Shown piece after piece: positions 3,788-43,468 of a DNA stretch of 43,468 nt. Where the stretch lies: IMG/VR virus record IMGVR_UViG_3300044941_000221, positions 1 through 43,468 of that record. The stretch is one strand, 5' to 3'. This stretch comes from a virus. Below the pieces are notes generated by a model. That model saw only the letters and a program-made list of their open reading frames with translations. It did no database searches and had not been told where the DNA came from. Position 1 is the stretch's first letter; each line of letters starts with the position of its first letter. The position numbers and the translations under genes were made by a program.

Positions 3788-4215
3788 TAATCATCCTTTG
3801 TCAGATCGATCGGAGGTTTGTTCGGCATCGCCATCATTTCCCGATGCCCCTTCGCGACCCTTGCTGCTTGTTCATCCGTTAAACGGAATCGGGGATCGCC
3901 TCGGTAAGGCTCTTCCTGAGGCAGTGAACTTGTGCTTTCTGGCTTTACTTCATCCTGCGGATCGCTCTTTACCTCAGGAGAGGCTTCACCTGTAAATCGC
4001 ACGCCCGCTTTTCGAGCGGCGTCCATTCTCAGGGAATGCTTTTCTTCCAGCTCGACGAGTCGGGCTTTTTGTTCATCCGTCATAGGTTCTTCCAACTCGA
4101 TCATTTCTCGCAGTTGATCAAGGTTGATTGCATCAATCAACGCTTGGCCATCTTCGGAAAGCCCTACTTGTGTCGTGAGCGGAAATCGATTGCTGTCAGC
4201 AAGTTTAAGTTCCAT
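3787..4215 (-). CDS. Small acidic helical protein between portal and MuF genes
   Basis: A 142-residue protein that overlaps the end of the portal gene by 11 bases and abuts the MuF gene. Residues 25-75 are predicted helical and rich in Glu and Leu, the middle is a Pro/Glu/Ser linker, and the C-terminus carries a short helix followed by a D-L-T-K-D-D end. No family is recognised. It could be a scaffold or connector accessory. Because it follows an ORF ending in a zeta-toxin-like kinase, an antidote role is also possible, but nothing in the sequence resembles the epsilon antitoxin. Confidence 0.6.
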   Translation of the reverse strand: MELKLADSNRFPLTTQVGLSEDGQALIDAINLDQLREMIELEEPMTDEQKARLVELEEKHSLRMDAARKAGVRFTGEASPEVKSDPQDEVKPESTSSLPQEEPYRGDPRFRLTDEQAARVAKGHREMMAMPNKPPIDLTKDD

Positions 4216-7200
4216 CGCCTGTGCCCTTTGTTTTTTCGACCCATTGTTGCCCCATTAGCCCAATAGCCACATCATCCGGAATCTCTCCGGTCCTAAGCTT
4301 ATTGGCCAGGTCTTGCTCCATTGAGGTCTTGAATTCGCCTAATTTGCGATCTTCTTCTTCGATCCGAGACTCAAGATACTTGATCGCTTCATTTCTATCT
4401 TCGATCAGTCGTGTCTGACCTTTATCACTTGTATTATCGATTACCGATGTGTCAATATCCTTTCTTCTTTTCAACAATTCTAAAGTTGCTTTTCTCGAAG
4501 CTATATTCGCTTCCATCGCTATGGAAAGGGGAACCGTCCGAGGCATCTCTCCTCGTTTCAACGCATTCATCGCCCGTTCAATTACGCCACTCGTCGCACC
4601 GGAAACTCCTCTGTCGACAAAAACGTGCTGCGGAGTGAATCCAGCAGCAATCGCTTCATCGAGTTTCTTCTCGAGCTTCGGATAATTTGCGGAAGCTTGA
4701 TCAAGCACAATGGGATACTTTTTCACATCGAAATGGTTCTTCGTTGCGGTGCCTTTGCCGGATCCTCCTCCACCAGCCAAGATCAGCATTCTTCCATTTC
4801 CCTTGCCTTTGGTCTCCTTCAAAGCCTCTTTGTACAAACGATTGTTCAATTCTGCGCTTGCTTCATGTACCTCATGCGCATTTGTACCCCTGTATTGCGG
4901 GAATTGCGACCTCCAGTCGTCGGTATTGAGAATGACTCCTTCGAGCTTTCCATCTTTCCCTAGCCTTCCGTGGTTTTGGAGGTAGGATTTTCGATGCTCA
5001 GGCCAGTTTCGCTGAGCACTTCGCATTGTTGCTTTTTCAACAAACTGAGCCGTTTCTCGGTCTCTCTCCCACTTGTCTCCCTTCCAGATCATTCCGGAAT
5101 CTAGGCTGCGATCGCCGGTTTTTGGAACTCCCAGTGCTGCACGAATTGCTCCAAGCGTCTGCTCTTTGATCGCATCTCGCTCCTTTTTAGTTTTTGCGGA
5201 TGCAAGCAATGCAGCTTGGATTTGAATTGCCTCACTGACTGATCCGCGAATTCGAGAAAGTCGATCAAAATTAGATGCAGCACTTTCGGCTGCTTCAGCT
5301 CGTTTGGCGTTTTCATCAACTGCCAGGACGTTTCCTGCGTCAGTTACCCGTTCGGCTCGTCGCTTGTTGGCGACCGCTCGATAATCGTTTGCCTCTTGTT
5401 GCAACAGTCTAGAGACATAAGCCTCCAGTTCAACCTCTTGATCAAACGTCGATTGCTCTTCTTCGAATGCACCGAAGAGATCGAAACCGGTTTGGGTAAC
5501 CGATCCGGCTGAAGCCATCTTGCGAGCAGCGGTTTCAATTTCCCGATTGGTCCACTCGCGTTGATCGTTCGATTCTCGGTCCTCAAGCTTCTTGAAAAGC
5601 TTTTGCTGGAGCTCTGGATCCTTGAGGTGACGAGCAACCGCGATTGCCTTGTCTTCGTCCAGCCGTCCCTCGGTGACCATCTGAAACGGCTTGTCGGCCA
5701 AATCCTTCAAAATGGCCGCATCAGCCGCCACCTTGCCAGTCATCGAGATTCCTGCTTCCTTCAGGTGTTCGATGCTCTTCCCAGAATCGCGAAGATACTT
5801 GGCCGCATCGATCGCAGAGCCTCGCCCCTCGGCGATGTTCGCCAACGCCCCTCGAGCGCGTGCCTCCTGAGCCGATTCGGCCTGGATATATCGAACGTTG
5901 ATTTGGCCCGCGTTCAATCGCGTGGCTAGTTCATGCCTGTGGTGACCATTAACAACGAAGTCCTGACCCGTTTCTGGATCTCTCCAAACGAGAAGAGCCC
6001 CCGCCAACTCGGGATTCCACTTGTCAACGCCTTTCAACTCCGCTGTAACGCCTGTATCGTCAACCCCCTTAACCTTGTATTGGAACCGCTTTGGATCGAC
6101 CTTGAGGCTATCAACCGGAACGGTGTAGACGTCTTGGTTATTGGGGTTCTTTGGAGTCGCGTCATCTCGTTTCTTAGATTCAACCGGTTTACCGTGAAGT
6201 CGTTCGGCGATTTTCGCGACTAAAGAGGGTTTTGCGCCACCCGCTTTAATGTTGTACTCTCGTTGAAGGTCTCGCAGCTGCTTGGTCGTGAGAATCGATA
6301 GGTGCGAAGAGATCTCGCGCAAGGCTGACTCGGTTCGCTCTCCCTGAAGGACGGTTCGAATTTTGTCTTTGGCAGCCGCAACTGCCTCAGGGCTGTTCTT
6401 TTCGATGAACCGACCGTCTGGACCTCGTGGGTGATCGATTGCTTTCCAAGTACCCATCCGCTTTACTGGCTCGGAGTAGGCCTTTTCGAACATCTCTTCG
6501 GCATCATCGCCAAAGATGCTTTGCAGAATCTCGGCGATCGGTTCAGCGAAAAGATTTGGATCGATGTCCTTCTCATCTATGCGTACGGTGCTCATCAATC
6601 GCGAAGGGATTTGAAGCGATGGACTGCCGGGTGCAGCTAACTGCTGTACTGGCTGCTGACCTGATTGGAAACCTCCGGCTCCGGACTGTTGTTCCATCGC
6701 CACTTGCTCCAACGGCTTAAAGCAAATATCGAAGTCCAGTGCTTTTCCCCAATTCAGCATCACGAGCGGTTCTAAAGTGAAACGCAAATCACGAAAGATT
6801 TGAGTCACCCAAGAATCCAAACCAGAATAGAAAGCTGCGAGCGAGACCCGTTTTCCGGCCCAGCCACCGACGCCATCGGAACTGATCACGTCATCCGGAA
6901 TTTCCATTCCGATGCGGATCTCATCGTCCAGATCCTTGGGGAACTGCAAAATGTGAGCGGGGTTACTCGATACTGTTGCATCGTGGATCTCCCATTTCGG
7001 GTTGCCCATTGCATCCCTGGTTGTAGGATAGGTCACAGTTCCACCGGCGGCGCGTTGTTCGGCAATTTGGACGGCCAGATCGCGAGCCGCTACAGGATCG
7101 TTTTGTCCATCGATGTAGACTGACTCCTCAGGAAAGCCAATCTTCATGCCTCCGTAGGCATCCTTGTGCATGTAGAGTCGCCGAGTATCAAGCGCAGCAC

Positions 7201-7843
7201 CGTCGAGCCATTTGTCAGCCCAGGGTGAGTACGCGCCCAAGAGTACGGGGGTTCCGTAGTCTTCGCCCGCATCGGGATTGAAGCTGTGAAACCAACAATA
7301 GGGAAACGGTAGATCGACTTCTCCGCAATTTGTGATTCTCTTTACTCGAATCCCGTAGCGATCCCCTTTATCCTTCAGGAGCAAGACGTCTGAGGCGTGC
7401 CGAGGCAACAAGCGATCAATCTCTATAAGATTGTGCTCCGATAATCGAACCGTGACTTCTCCACCGCTCCAGCCCCAAATCTGAGCTTTGAGAATCTCAG
7501 GTAAGTAGTTAGTCCAGATCGTTTCGACCTGCCTTTGAACCCAAGCACCGACGGCAGGATTTCGCGACTTTACCCCGTGTACCCAGATCGGTTTACTACT
7601 CGAGTCGTAGCCTTTTTGGTAGGCAAGCTGAACGTTATTCAGAGGAGCCTGTCGCATAGCGAGGCACAATCGCACCTGCGGATCCAGCAGCATGGCATAG
7701 ATCGTATCAAAGCTAAACGGTGGCAGATCACGTGGTTGTTGAAACCACGTACGAACCATGGGCCGGTAACCTTTGGTGACCGGTTGGGTAGGTTGGTCCG
7801 AAGTTGGCCGCCTGGTGAACAGAGATTTGATTTTTTGCAACAT
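4205..7843 (-). CDS. Portal protein fused to SAP-like, ParB-like and zeta-toxin-like kinase domains
   Basis: A 1,212-residue protein, far longer than the usual 450-550 residues of Mu gp29/DUF935 portals. Residues about 20-470 match that portal family in style (R-M/L-C-L-A-M-R, W-G-W-S-G-G-E-V, W-F-H-S-F, then an E-I-P-D-D-V-I segment). Residues about 517-552 resemble a SAP/Rho-N helix pair. Residues 571-690 are ParB/Srx-like, with V-N-G-H-H-R-H at 631-637. Residues 690-960 are mostly charged helices. The C-terminus is a zeta-toxin-like P-loop kinase with Walker A G-G-G-G-S-G-K-G around Lys1030 and a V-F-V-D-R strand. A T-D-D-W-R...F-P-x-Y motif precedes the P-loop. ParB and zeta-like domains together are typical of the 'polyvalent' proteins of phages and plasmids; their fusion to a portal is the unusual point. 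The extension may sit inside the head at the exit vertex or be cut off during assembly. Confidence 0.85.
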   Translation of the reverse strand: MLQKIKSLFTRRPTSDQPTQPVTKGYRPMVRTWFQQPRDLPPFSFDTIYAMLLDPQVRLCLAMRQAPLNNVQLAYQKGYDSSSKPIWVHGVKSRNPAVGAWVQRQVETIWTNYLPEILKAQIWGWSGGEVTVRLSEHNLIEIDRLLPRHASDVLLLKDKGDRYGIRVKRITNCGEVDLPFPYCWFHSFNPDAGEDYGTPVLLGAYSPWADKWLDGAALDTRRLYMHKDAYGGMKIGFPEESVYIDGQNDPVAARDLAVQIAEQRAAGGTVTYPTTRDAMGNPKWEIHDATVSSNPAHILQFPKDLDDEIRIGMEIPDDVISSDGVGGWAGKRVSLAAFYSGLDSWVTQIFRDLRFTLEPLVMLNWGKALDFDICFKPLEQVAMEQQSGAGGFQSGQQPVQQLAAPGSPSLQIPSRLMSTVRIDEKDIDPNLFAEPIAEILQSIFGDDAEEMFEKAYSEPVKRMGTWKAIDHPRGPDGRFIEKNSPEAVAAAKDKIRTVLQGERTESALREISSHLSILTTKQLRDLQREYNIKAGGAKPSLVAKIAERLHGKPVESKKRDDATPKNPNNQDVYTVPVDSLKVDPKRFQYKVKGVDDTGVTAELKGVDKWNPELAGALLVWRDPETGQDFVVNGHHRHELATRLNAGQINVRYIQAESAQEARARGALANIAEGRGSAIDAAKYLRDSGKSIEHLKEAGISMTGKVAADAAILKDLADKPFQMVTEGRLDEDKAIAVARHLKDPELQQKLFKKLEDRESNDQREWTNREIETAARKMASAGSVTQTGFDLFGAFEEEQSTFDQEVELEAYVSRLLQQEANDYRAVANKRRAERVTDAGNVLAVDENAKRAEAAESAASNFDRLSRIRGSVSEAIQIQAALLASAKTKKERDAIKEQTLGAIRAALGVPKTGDRSLDSGMIWKGDKWERDRETAQFVEKATMRSAQRNWPEHRKSYLQNHGRLGKDGKLEGVILNTDDWRSQFPQYRGTNAHEVHEASAELNNRLYKEALKETKGKGNGRMLILAGGGGSGKGTATKNHFDVKKYPIVLDQASANYPKLEKKLDEAIAAGFTPQHVFVDRGVSGATSGVIERAMNALKRGEMPRTVPLSIAMEANIASRKATLELLKRRKDIDTSVIDNTSDKGQTRLIEDRNEAIKYLESRIEEEDRKLGEFKTSMEQDLANKLRTGEIPDDVAIGLMGQQWVEKTKGTGDGT

Positions 7844-36971: not shown

Positions 36972-37045
36972 TCGGGGGAGCGGGAATCGAACCCGCGTAG
37001 ATCGGCTTATGAGACCGATGGTTGATCCATCACAACTTCCCCCCA
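36972..37045 (-). tRNA. tRNA-Met-like gene, anticodon CAT
   Basis: A 74-base cloverleaf on the minus strand. Acceptor stem TGGGGGG with TCCCCCG (G-T pairs at both ends) and discriminator A; D-arm GTTG with CAAC around an eight-base loop containing GG; anticodon stem TCGGT with GCCGA and loop CTCATAA; variable loop TCTAC; T-arm GCGGG with CCCGC and loop TTCGATT. CAT could mean elongator Met or lysidine-modified Ile. Odd points are A instead of U at position 8, a U-G first pair and two bases between D- and anticodon stems. No CCA is encoded. Confidence 0.8.
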
Positions 37046-38679: not shown

Positions 38680-39342
38680 TTATGGGTCACGACGGGCAGC
38701 GTCAAATTGGTAAGATATGGTTCCTTCCACGGGATCTAGTAGTTTTGTGAAATTGTCCAGCCCTCGTGCAGACACATAGGCGAAACACTGAATTCTTGCA
38801 TTGGGAAACGATTCTTTCACCTTAACGTAGGATCCAATGAAAGTTTCGCCTCGTGTTACAACATCGTCTACCAAGGTGATTGAAGTTGCATTTCCATAGA
38901 GCAAGGTTTACTTCGTATCCACCGACATTGTGTTTACGTGGTCAATAGCGTTTGCGCGTGAACCCCTAGGAGAGTAAGCAGATTTTACAACGGGAGTGTG
39001 GCGAATTAGGCACGGGCAAACTGCTTCTCCAAGTCCATGCTTTACAAGAGAGTCACAGATGTTGAAGGGAACCCAAAGCCCTCCAGCAACTCTTGGGGAG
39101 CTGCTGGGGACAGGAACTAGAATTGTCGATTTGTTCAAGAACTCAGAAATGAATGGAAATTCTTGCCTTAGTTCAACAATTCTTTGGGCTACATATGGGA
39201 TTATGCGTCTACCACCAACAAACCCATCACGTTTAATCGCGTCGACATTGCTGGCCGCTTTTATTCGGTCAGCGTCGCCATTTCTACGTTTTGAGTCGTA
39301 GGTTAGGATCGAGCAGAATCGAACACTAGAGGGAAACGGCAT
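38680..39342 (-). pseudogene. ComF-like phosphoribosyltransferase with one in-frame stop
   Basis: An originally 220-residue protein overlapping the DprA-like gene by 17 bases. The stop TAA at 38910-38908 is followed two codons later, in the same frame, by the P-R-T-ase signature (I-T-L-V-D-D-V-V-T-R-G-E-T-F). The first part carries V-P-V-P-S-S-S-P-R, C-L-I-R-H-T-P and S-P-R-G-S-R, as in ComF-like PRTases. So a single nonsense base change, a sequencing or assembly error, or readthrough separates the two halves. If real, the PRTase lacks its PRPP-binding loop. PRTase-DprA pairs are found as neighbours in several genomic islands. Confidence 0.75.
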
Positions 39343-40003
39343 CGCACCTCAACGGAACAAACTGTAGTAACTCTTCCACGCCCAACTTGTCACACGAAAT
39401 TGGCGATGCACCATACTTCATTAATTCTGTTGGCCATTTCAGCGATTTATCACCAAGGATTTCTTCACTAATGAATAACGGCCTACCGAGCCGAAGCGAT
39501 TCCCAACCTTGATGTAGCGATCCGCTTTCGTCAGCAGCTTCAACAATCAAAGTTGCATCAGCGATCAAAGCCATCGTTCGGTTGCGCTGTGGGAAGCAAG
39601 ACGGATAGGTGCGACTTCCTATTGGAAACTGAGAAATCAAAAGATGTTCTTCGGCAATCAAGTTTTGAAGTGCTTGGTGCTTAGCCGGATAACACTTATC
39701 GATTGGCGTGCCAATAATCGCGATGGTTCGACCATTGGCCTGGATACATCCGTCATGTGCAGATTTATCCACTCCCTCTGCAAGACCGCTTACAACCACA
39801 ACGTTTTCTGCAGCAAGCATACGAGCGAACGTATACGCTCGCTGGGAACCGGCCTTAGAAACTTTTCTAGAACCTACTATCGAAACCCGAGGCCCTCCCC
39901 GAAGAATCGACACATCGCCCTTCACAAAAAGCTCAGCGGGAGCATTCTTGGTCTCAACATCATTTAATGGGCCAAGAAGACCTGTTGCGGTGTATCTTTT
40001 CAT
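39326..40003 (-). CDS. DprA/Smf-like protein
   Basis: 225 residues, Rossmann-like. V-S-I-V-G-S-R-K-V-S, V-V-V-S-G-L-A-E-G-V-D-K-S-A-H, then I-A-I-I-G-T-P-I-D-K-C-Y-P and F-P-Q-R-N-R-T-M are the DprA core. It lacks the winged helix and the SAM-like domain of full DprA (typically about 360 residues). DprA binds single-stranded DNA; in phage or island settings the short form with a PRTase may have a different role, possibly in nucleotide-linked defence. It begins the accessory module upstream of the PRTase. Confidence 0.85.
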   Translation of the reverse strand: MKRYTATGLLGPLNDVETKNAPAELFVKGDVSILRGGPRVSIVGSRKVSKAGSQRAYTFARMLAAENVVVVSGLAEGVDKSAHDGCIQANGRTIAIIGTPIDKCYPAKHQALQNLIAEEHLLISQFPIGSRTYPSCFPQRNRTMALIADATLIVEAADESGSLHQGWESLRLGRPLFISEEILGDKSLKWPTELMKYGASPISCDKLGVEELLQFVPLRCDAVSL

Positions 40004-40436: not shown

Positions 40437-40692
40437 TCTCCGCTTGCCTTTCTAATGTTCGGGTAACCACATTCTGATCTATTTTTCCTGTTGAGCAGAT
40501 TTTGCTAGCGTCACTGACACCTTTGGTCCGCGATGTTTTTACCAGGAAAATTCCTAGGTATTCTCCGAGTCGGATTGTGGAAAGCTTGTTCATGGAATCC
40601 GGTAACCGCTTGACCGAGAAGATTTATCCGCCTAGCATGAAGGGAACCTCCTAGCGAAAACTCCCTGCCACTTGTTTTCAATAGGATGCAAA
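40437..40692. other. Intergenic region before the excisionase-like gene
   Basis: A 256-base gap between divergent genes. It contains AAAACTCCCTGCCAC (40657-40671), an exact copy of a 15-base sequence at 36951-36965 near csrA. Possible promoters for both neighbours, but none stands out. A 61-codon minus-strand frame (40408-40593) lacks a good ribosome site and overlaps the next gene. Confidence 0.4.
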
Positions 40693-40962
40693 ATGAGTGA
40701 GTTACCCGCACTGGATCACGTCTACACGATCCAAGAATTGGCGGACCATCTTAAGGTTTCGCCCTACACAGTCGCGTCTCTAATCGACTCTGGTCGGTTA
40801 AAGTCGCTGCCTAATCTTTCGGCCAGCACAAAGAAAAGAATCAGGCGGGTAACTCATTCTGCTTTGCTTGAGTTCCTGAGCCAGGAAGCAGAGCCAAAGC
40901 ATCGAAAAAAGGAATTGCCATTGCCTCCACCGTCGCAACGAAGGTTGAAGTTAGCCAAATGA
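40693..40962 (+). CDS. Excisionase-like HTH protein
   Basis: 89 residues from ATG 40693 (AGGA six bases upstream). Y-T-I-Q-E-L-A-D-H-L-K-V-S-P-Y-T-V is a HTH_17 winged helix, followed by V-T-H-S-A-L-L-E-F-L and a basic Pro-rich tail. It faces the integrase gene convergently and is the best recombination directionality factor in the window. Confidence 0.7.
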   Translation: MSELPALDHVYTIQELADHLKVSPYTVASLIDSGRLKSLPNLSASTKKRIRRVTHSALLEFLSQEAEPKHRKKELPLPPPSQRRLKLAK

Positions 40963-41018: not shown

Positions 41019-42065
41019 TTATTGTTTCGTCCTTTCGACCGCAATCCTAACAGCCTCCAATCGCATCGGATCGTCACAAGCATCGAGGTGCGAATACACC
41101 TTTGCTACCATCGTGGAATCCTTGTGACCAAGTAATGCAGCCACGGTGGGCATTGAAGCCCCATGCAATAGTGATTCAGTTGCAAAGGTATGCCGATAGG
41201 CATACATCACCAAAGATGGATCGAGTTTCAATTCGACCTTCATTCTAGAAAACCGCCGCACAAGCCCATCTTTCTTCCAGGCTTCTCCAGTTGGAGAGCG
41301 AAACAAAGGTCCACTCGGTCGAGAGTGAGAGAGAATCGAAACCAGAGTCTTCAAACAGGGCGAGGGCCTAACGATTAACTTTTTGCCGGTTTTCTTTCCC
41401 GTCTTATGACGGGCGAAAACCCAATCCCCATGGTTGGTCACGTGTTTGGCAGTAAGCTCGCGAATCTGTACTGGCCGGACCCCTGAATGCCATAGCGCAA
41501 TTAACACCAGACCAAAAGGCCTACGGTTCTTCCTGCCGGTCCTGGTTGCCTTAACGCATCGTTCGTGAGTAGCTCGGTCTATAAGCACAATCCGAGGTTC
41601 CGGCGTTTCGGAACGATGAAGGAGAATGTCGGAGGCTGGTATCCATCCTTGCAGGTGAGCCCATCGGTACGCACGAAGCACAAATTGGGCCGCGTCACGC
41701 TTCCGAGCCACCGACCAAGTGTATTCCTTCACGCCCCGCTTTCGTTTCGTATTGAGCCATTTGTCGAGCTCAAGGCAGGTTACATCTCTGAGTCGTCGCG
41801 TAGGTCCGAAATGGTTAGCAAACGAAGAGAGGAGTGATACTGCTTTTTGGTATCGTTCTTTGGAGGCCTGGATTTCGTAGAAGGCCAACCAACGTTCAAA
41901 GATCGCTTCGACGGTGGCATCTTGATGTTTGTAGTCCGCCATGGCACGCATCCGTTCCCACAAATCAAAGGCTGTTTGTTCGACCGGATCAAGACGGATG
42001 TTTGCTCCACGATCATCCTTGATGTACCAGCACTTCCTTGCCTTCCAAAAAAACGGTTTCTTCAT
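41019..42065 (-). CDS. int: Tyrosine integrase
   Basis: 348 residues from ATG 42065, with GAGG nine bases upstream; a start ten codons earlier is possible. An N-terminal arm-binding-like domain, a core-binding helical domain and a catalytic domain with Arg in H-S-G-V-R-P (residue 197), the R-H-T-F box with Arg291, His314 in L-L-G-H and the nucleophile Tyr324 in V-Y-S-H-L. The first box-II His is Tyr (Y-A-Y-R), a known tolerated change in some subfamilies. It should act at the tRNA-Arg-like attP upstream. Confidence 0.9.
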   Translation of the reverse strand: MKKPFFWKARKCWYIKDDRGANIRLDPVEQTAFDLWERMRAMADYKHQDATVEAIFERWLAFYEIQASKERYQKAVSLLSSFANHFGPTRRLRDVTCLELDKWLNTKRKRGVKEYTWSVARKRDAAQFVLRAYRWAHLQGWIPASDILLHRSETPEPRIVLIDRATHERCVKATRTGRKNRRPFGLVLIALWHSGVRPVQIRELTAKHVTNHGDWVFARHKTGKKTGKKLIVRPSPCLKTLVSILSHSRPSGPLFRSPTGEAWKKDGLVRRFSRMKVELKLDPSLVMYAYRHTFATESLLHGASMPTVAALLGHKDSTMVAKVYSHLDACDDPMRLEAVRIAVERTKQ

Positions 42066-42150
42066 GCTTGGTGTCCTCAAAAAGTAGGGGAGCAAGCTTA
42101 CCCAGGAAAGATGACACGTCAGGTCACTTAGTACGGGTCAAGAAAAGTTT

Positions 42151-42170
42151 AGTATCAATTTTGGTATCAG
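42151..42170. repeat. Direct repeat, left copy flanking attP
   Basis: AGTATCAATTTTGGTATCAG; a one-base-shorter copy lies at 42358-42376. Each contains GTATCA twice. They flank the attP-like core at 52 and 94 bases and may be integrase arm-type sites or DNA-bending sites. An inverted relation (AGTATC with GATACT) is also seen here. Confidence 0.6.
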
Positions 42171-42221
42171 ATACTAAACGGAGCTGACGCCGAAGATAGG
42201 TTTCATCAAGGAAAAACCTAG

Positions 42222-42264
42222 TACCCCCGGCAAGGTTCGAACTTGCGACCTCAGCTTTAGGAAA
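42222..42264 (-). other. attP core: 3' half of tRNA-Arg(CCT)
   Basis: On the minus strand, TTTCCTAA...AGCTG is the anticodon loop and 3' anticodon stem of a tRNA with anticodon CCT, followed by a 5-base variable loop, the T-arm GCAAG-TTCGAAC-CTTGC and the acceptor strand CGGGGGT with discriminator A. The 5' half of a tRNA is missing: the bases before the loop (CTC) do not pair with AGCTG. Such half tRNAs in front of an integrase gene are typical attP cores, so the phage probably integrates into a host tRNA-Arg(CCT) and restores it. Confidence 0.8.
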
Positions 42265-42357
42265 GAGGCTCCCAAGTGAATATCCTCAAAATTCACTGGA
42301 GTTTCTACTTTGTGCACCGTGGAAAACTTGTTGAAATTGCCACGTCACGCAGCCGAT

Positions 42358-42376
42358 AGTATCAATTTGGTATCAG
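42358..42376. repeat. Direct repeat, right copy flanking attP
   Basis: AGTATCAATTTGGTATCAG, one T shorter than the copy at 42151-42170. It overlaps the stop codon of the glycosyltransferase-like gene. Probably an integrase or accessory-protein binding arm. Confidence 0.6.
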
Positions 42377-43468
42377 TGTCTAACCCATCGAGATCTGCTG
42401 TATTGCCACTCTGGCCCCTCTAGGGAATCTCGAAAAGCTGGGGTTGCGTATTCGATCGCAATTCCAAGGTTCTCTGCTATCCATCGCTGACCAAAAAACC
42501 AATCTTCATTGTGCCAGTTTTGCTTGTGATTGCGATGGAACAGTATCGGAGAATGAACGATGTTTAACTTAATGCCATGATGACGCATTAGCGCGGGAAC
42601 TGCATAGTCCCACATCGCATGCCCAATCGCAAACGGGAAATCGTCCGGAAGTAACATTGCTTGCTTCGGGGTGAAACTGAAGGCATCCAGACCATAGCGG
42701 AACTCCGTGACAACGTAGGGGCTTTCTATGTCGTAATTCCATCGCACCCCCACAAATTGCGTTGACTCATCGACCTGTAACCAATCGTTAGATCCTCGTA
42801 GTTCACAATCGGAGTTGATTAACAAAACTGCTCTGTCGAGTTCGACGGCTGTTCGTGCTAACTCTTGGATACGTTGCGTTGGGTAAGCGAAGCATGTCGC
42901 GACCTCATTCGACGATATGAACTCGACCGTCGGAAAATGCTCTTTCAACACGGCAATCTCTTCGTCGGTATTCTTTGCAAACACCTGCAATCCAAAACGT
43001 TCCCAAGATTGAACGCACTTTTGCTGATTTTCCAGACTGTGCCTATTGGGGGACAAGGCAGTTATGGCAACAATGTCGTTTCTCTTAGCGTTCTCCACAT
43101 TCCTGAGATTGTAAATGTTCATTACCTCGGTGAGCTCGAAGTTGTCCTTACCAAGCTTTTTGTTGACTGCTGACTTCAATCGCCATTTCCACTCGAACGA
43201 TACCGTCTTGCCTGGATGATTAGATTGTAAAAACGACTCGTAAAAGCTCTTGCAATCGCAACCATAACTAGGAATTCCACGAGACCATTCACACAGATCA
43301 TCAAAACTATGCACTTTTCCAAAGAGATCGTCCCAGAGTTGACGGCCTTTGACCGCTAGTTCCTCACGACTCTGAACAACACGGTATCGTTTCTTTCGAT
43401 CTCCTTCGTTACGCTGCCCTGGACCACGGTTTTCTTCCCATGCTTGAAAATACTCTGGTTTGGTTCGA
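42373..43468 (-). CDS. Glycosyltransferase-like protein crossing the window join
   Basis: The main part of a 390-residue protein whose start is at 157 across the join. A GTG at 43314 is in frame but the true start is the ATG overlapping the tail gene. Residues about 140-390 are of GT-A-like build: I-V-A-I-T-A-L-S-P-N at the first strand, then a long helix, V-L-L-I-N-S-D-C-E-L (a D-x-D-like acidic site) and later F-A-I-G-H-A-M-W-D-Y and H-S-P-I-L-F-H-R-N-H. It is the last gene of the virion operon, ending against an attP arm. It may modify the virion or the host surface. Certainty about the enzyme class is limited. Confidence 0.6.
   Translation of the reverse strand, partial: RTKPEYFQAWEENRGPGQRNEGDRKKRYRVVQSREELAVKGRQLWDDLFGKVHSFDDLCEWSRGIPSYGCDCKSFYESFLQSNHPGKTVSFEWKWRLKSAVNKKLGKDNFELTEVMNIYNLRNVENAKRNDIVAITALSPNRHSLENQQKCVQSWERFGLQVFAKNTDEEIAVLKEHFPTVEFISSNEVATCFAYPTQRIQELARTAVELDRAVLLINSDCELRGSNDWLQVDESTQFVGVRWNYDIESPYVVTEFRYGLDAFSFTPKQAMLLPDDFPFAIGHAMWDYAVPALMRHHGIKLNIVHSPILFHRNHKQNWHNEDWFFGQRWIAENLGIAIEYATPAFRDSLEGPEWQYSRSRWVRH
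43389..43468. repeat. Terminal direct repeat, right copy
   Basis: Exact copy of bases 1-80; see the left copy for its interpretation. Confidence 0.95.

Follow-up and report, generated by a model that had tools for sequence, protein, structure and literature searches.

Tyrosine-integrase elements that target tRNA genes are said to carry a 3′ tDNA fragment and to use, among others, an anticodon subsite termed 'A', as Williams reportedly set out in 2002. In phages of the lambda type, attP comprises a core plus arm-type sites. The Islander survey lists 3760 islands with 3′ fragments, 2083 of them anticodon-centred (PMC4383910). tRNA-dependent lysogeny involves a core about 10 bp long and requires the phage to supply a tRNA of matching isotype (PMC10865867).

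Here we analysed a stretch of 43,468 nucleotides (the window), which is an entire virus record (IMG/VR IMGVR_UViG_3300044941_000221). The site considered here is almost certainly the attP of a temperate phage of Pirellula-like planctomycetes, whose integrase would rebuild tRNA-Arg(CCT) on insertion. It is a textbook attP of a tRNA-rebuilding tyrosine integrase: the mechanism is well known, and the phage and its host group are little sampled. In keeping with Islander elements (PMC4383910), attP starts its 3′ tRNA half at the anticodon loop, insertion restores the target gene and the far end bears the displaced half; unlike in those elements, the host is a Pirellula-like planctomycete, the target is tRNA-Arg(CCT) and the integrase has remote relatives only. 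With tRNA-dependent lysogeny the locus shares a tyrosine integrase that integrates at a tRNA gene, but the tRNA is rebuilt here and is not rebuilt there (PMC10865867). In the literature searched no planctomycete prophage at tRNA-Arg is described, an absence that is not proof, and we found few temperate phages described for the host phylum.

The half tRNA and the molecule that carries it

Matches to terminase, tape-measure and head-decoration proteins identify the window as phage DNA. Its first 80 bases (1–80) are 100% identical to 43389–43468, and a late gene on the minus strand (42373–43468; glycosyltransferase-like by eye, with no Pfam match) runs across the ends to about position 157. The record thus closes into a 43388-bp circle, which has the half tRNA within it, as a single-copy attP, rather than at a host junction. 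The record could instead be an integrated prophage with flanking DNA, the core being attR and everything beyond 42265 belonging to the host, much as the same core is attR in the related contig L002. We consider this very improbable, since the overlap and the spanning ORF join 42373–43468 to the late genes, in an order also seen in L035. Elsewhere on the circle, 4205–7843 (minus strand) encodes a protein of 1212 aa in which a zeta-toxin-like match falls close to the C-terminus.

Read on the minus strand, 42265–42220 is CTTTCCTAAAGCTGAGGTCGCAAGTTCGAACCTTGCCGGGGGTACT. Positions 42222–42263 parse as tRNA positions 32–73 of a tRNA-Arg(CCT), from the anticodon loop through the discriminator base, and are identical at 42/42 bases to host tRNA-Arg(CCT) (L036/L016, L037/L010). 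The loop TTCCTAA (42257–42263) holds the anticodon CCT at 42259–42261 and is followed by the 3′ anticodon stem AGCTG, the variable AGGTC, a perfect T arm (GCAAG-TTCGAAC-CTTGC), the acceptor strand CGGGGGT and A73 at 42222. ARAGORN and Rfam detect neither a 5′ half next to the core nor a complete tRNA at it, and nothing resembling a 5′ half precedes it; the attP contains a 3′ tRNA fragment only. The core is present once in the window and has 0 matches across 100 shuffles. The initial annotation had proposed just such a 3′ half lacking its 5′ partner, at 42222–42264 (43 bases). Its identification and its site hold, and its limits have moved: the best estimates are 42222–42263 (42 nt) for the tRNA half and 42220–42265 for identity to host DNA. 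The only tRNA found in the window is a phage-encoded tRNA-Met(CAT) at 36972–37045 on the minus strand (Rfam, 37.9 bits).

Integrase, arm-type repeats and proposed mechanism

A tyrosine integrase of 348 aa, with an ATG start, is encoded beside attP on the minus strand (41019–42065; Pfam Phage_integrase 3.9e-13, phrog_1 integrase 1.3e-26), its start at 42065 lying 157 bp from the core. R197, K221, R291 and H292 are invariant in the alignment, and Y324 is in place. Among 50,697 annotated phage records it has remote relatives only, at 24–37% identity. A scan of viral contigs with this single integrase as query returned no relative, and the related viral integrases considered below were recovered with the family alignment as query instead. 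Converging on the integrase gene is a candidate excisionase on the plus strand (40672–40962; HTH_17 1.9e-9, phrog_2907 excisionase 2.5e-5). Also near it, on the minus strand at 38680–40003, a DprA-like gene (ShosA, 8.9e-67) adjoins a phosphoribosyltransferase-like gene (ShosT) that is interrupted by one in-frame TAA at 38908–38910; this is a ShosTA-like defence or toxin-antitoxin pair, perhaps disabled or affected by a sequencing error.

The core is flanked by tandem TGATAC repeats. The int-side putative arm-type pair, TGATACCAAAATTGATACTA, occupies 42150–42169 (minus strand) and recurs in the same place in relatives. The distal pair, TGATACCAAATTGATACTA, lies at 42357–42375 (minus strand), where it is bordered by the late gene that crosses the circular junction, and has equivalents in the same place in L002 (TGATACCAAATTGATACC) and L015 (TGATACCGTTTTGATACC). 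The pattern TGATACCAAA(A)TTGATACTA has exactly two sites in the window, one either side of the core, compared with 0 sites in 100 shuffles and none expected by chance. As in a lambda-type attP, repeated arm motifs thus stand on either side of the core with int beside one arm, but each putative arm here is one tandem pair with a period of 11–12 bp.

The following sequence of events may be proposed. The adjacent tyrosine integrase would bind the TGATAC repeats on both arms and recombine the 7-bp anticodon-loop sequence of the phage with its identical counterpart in the tRNA-Arg(CCT) gene of the host. The phage-borne 3′ half would thereby be placed behind the host promoter and 5′ half, leaving an intact tRNA gene next to int (attL), and the host 3′ half, displaced, would mark the opposite end of the prophage (attR). 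Excision is probably directed by the small HTH protein.

Host tRNA, integration junctions and probable point of exchange

An exact scan of bacterial genome contigs gave a single match; it lies in a MAG of Pirellula sp. (L003), and at the matched core ARAGORN identifies a complete tRNA-Arg(CCT). Exact 40-mer matches occur in 2 of 241 genomes of the family Pirellulaceae, one being the same MAG (G002) and the other G084; two further genomes match within 3 mismatches. At the sequence level the phage fragment is identical to the 3′ part of the host tRNA: over the 42-nt core, tRNA-Arg(CCT) of G002 and of G084 agrees with it at every base, and throughout 42220–42265 attP has the same bases as the attL/tRNA locus in Pirellula sp. 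Prado168 and in G084 (blastn, 46/46). Across the 28 best loci, where scorable, other genomes differ by 2–9 bases over the core, mostly in the T arm and acceptor, and the anticodon loop TTCCTAA is constant. The initial annotation had anticipated that planctomycete genomes would yield a tRNA-Arg(CCT) sharing the core, and the identical 3′ half in the L003 MAG and G084 bears this out. Its Watson-Crick 5′ strands, CAGCT and ACCCCCG, were incorrect: the corresponding host strands are CGGCT and GCCCTCG, which rely on G-U pairs with the phage-type half. The phage-borne 3′ acceptor strand has to base-pair with a 5′ strand supplied by the host, from which a narrow host range can be predicted for the phage. 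The likely host, named by the identity of the tRNA half, is a Pirellula-like planctomycete.

The extent of this identity also bears on tRNA-dependent lysogeny, in which integration would destroy the host tRNA and a phage tRNA would substitute for it. The window does have a phage tRNA gene; its isotype, however, is wrong (Met, CAT), and the core, at 46 bp rather than about 10 bp, reaches past position 73, so that the gene is rebuilt through that position. We give this possibility almost no weight.

Both junction types were found in relatives, a rebuilt tRNA beside int (attL) and a displaced fragment at the far end (attR), and together with the circle they agree with the Campbell model. These examples are relatives of the window phage, the integrase at attL being 50% identical and the gene beside attR 58%; of the exact window phage no integrated copy was found. 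The attL is in Pirellula sp. Prado168 (L003/L016), where a complete tRNA-Arg(CCT) is followed, about 145 bp beyond, by the start of an integrase 50% identical to that of the window, in keeping with the earlier suggestion to look for prophages at this tRNA with related integrases. The attR is in L002 (IMG/VR, 25.9 kb), whose late genes are colinear with those of the window, mainly at 67–93% amino-acid identity. After the late genes come the attP-bordering gene (58%) and the distal arm repeat; the core follows, and beyond it lies unrelated DNA with no integrase. No empty attB with a shared right flank emerged: neither the right-flank host genes of L002 nor those of L015 matched any other host locus compared.

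Two further genomes carry traces of such elements. In G104, the tRNA-Arg(CCT) on one contig is cut off by the contig end inside the core, and another contig has the 3′ half only, beside a relative of the attP-bordering gene; base changes particular to G104 (TTCGAGC, CTGGG) are present in both core copies, which an attL/attR pair would be expected to show. In G084, an 82-residue integrase remnant, 40% identical, lies beside tRNA-Arg(CCT). This element appears decayed and overwritten, as there is no displaced core copy in 80 kb around the tRNA (L010–L013) and only one core pattern match in the entire genome. The overwriting genes are IS-like: transposase genes of this type come after the truncated integrase (L010:11041–16267) and suggest a reused integration hotspot. 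Among the phage contigs, L034 (9806–12733) has a copy of the attP-bordering gene, 73% identical, followed by another gene, with neither an att core nor int after it. L101 and L107 (IMGVR_UViG_3300017666_000010 and _000007), from one sample, each carry part of a terminase 97% identical to that of the window and overlap by about 37 bases; judged from these sequences, they are probably pieces of one prophage.

The presence of another tRNA gene in the phage (Met, 36972–37045) would be in line with a decayed or truncated phage tRNA gene with no role in integration. This reading is contradicted by the attL and attR junctions of relatives integrated at the same tRNA. Further arguing against it are the 42/42 identity to a chromosomal tRNA, the cut at the anticodon loop and the position between arm repeats next to int, and we judge it highly unlikely.

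Counted along the tRNA, identity to the host begins at position 30 for the window and at position 32 for L002 and L015, which is the 5′ edge of the anticodon loop or two bases before it in three phage-host pairs and fits a crossover there. We infer strand exchange over the anticodon loop, at 42257–42263, a length of 7 bp that matches the overlap region of such integrases (PMC8371274); anticodon-centred sites are one standard class of integration sites (PMC4383910). There is no mismatch inside the core to map the switch point, and with the entire 42-nt half identical the crossover could in principle fall anywhere. Exchange further 3′, in the T loop or at the acceptor end, would make the long shared stretch merely ancestral tRNA sequence, and Islander includes T-stem-region as well as anticodon-centred sites (PMC4383910). 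Counter to this, in the window, L002 and L015 the 5′ end of the half falls at tRNA position 32 or two bases earlier, halves in related loci likewise parse from the anticodon loop, and nothing would preserve the 5′ 30 bases of the half if the crossover were downstream. We therefore think a more 3′ exchange unlikely, and favour the anticodon loop.

Related integrases and possible exchange of tRNA targets

Among 17 loci with related integrases in planctomycete genomes, 11 lie no more than 1.5 kb from a complete tRNA, which is tRNA-Pro in 9, tRNA-Arg in 1 and tRNA-Val in 1. In a tree of 17 sequences, the window groups with L016 as an Arg pair, with support, and the rest of the clade is at tRNA-Pro. 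Eight related viral integrase loci share one layout (arm pair, tRNA 3′ half, arm pair, int), with the half 178–227 bp from int. Four loci, closely similar to one another, carry a Val(GAC) half, two carry Pro(CGG) and one Pro(GGG); the remaining half, whose loop parse is less clean, is probably Cys(GCA). Arm motifs vary among the loci (TGATAC, GGCACC, GGCAAC, GTCCCC), and the motif TGGCACC can be shared by loci with different tRNA targets.

The common layout, with TGGCACC recurring across different targets, suggests a conserved chassis with exchangeable targets. Specifically, the attP chassis of this integrase clade may have stayed fixed, as a tRNA half from position 32 with an arm pair on each side and int beyond one of them, while the half itself was exchanged over evolution among Arg(CCT), Val(GAC), Pro(CGG), Pro(GGG) and probably Cys(GCA), a proposal to which we give even odds. 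If true, retargeting would proceed by a swap of the tRNA half and of core-binding specificity, with arm recognition kept. The sister attPs offer a natural series in which to follow changes of tRNA target by integrases. At the locus itself, exact sequence identity ties an uncultured phage to a Pirellula-like host and provides a testable integrase/attP/attB set for planctomycetes.

Other orientations were also seen near related integrases. In L019 (1270–1343), a complete tRNA-Pro(CGG) has its 5′ rather than its 3′ end towards the integrase, and L023, L027 and L031 carry tRNA-like 3′ halves in reverse orientation.
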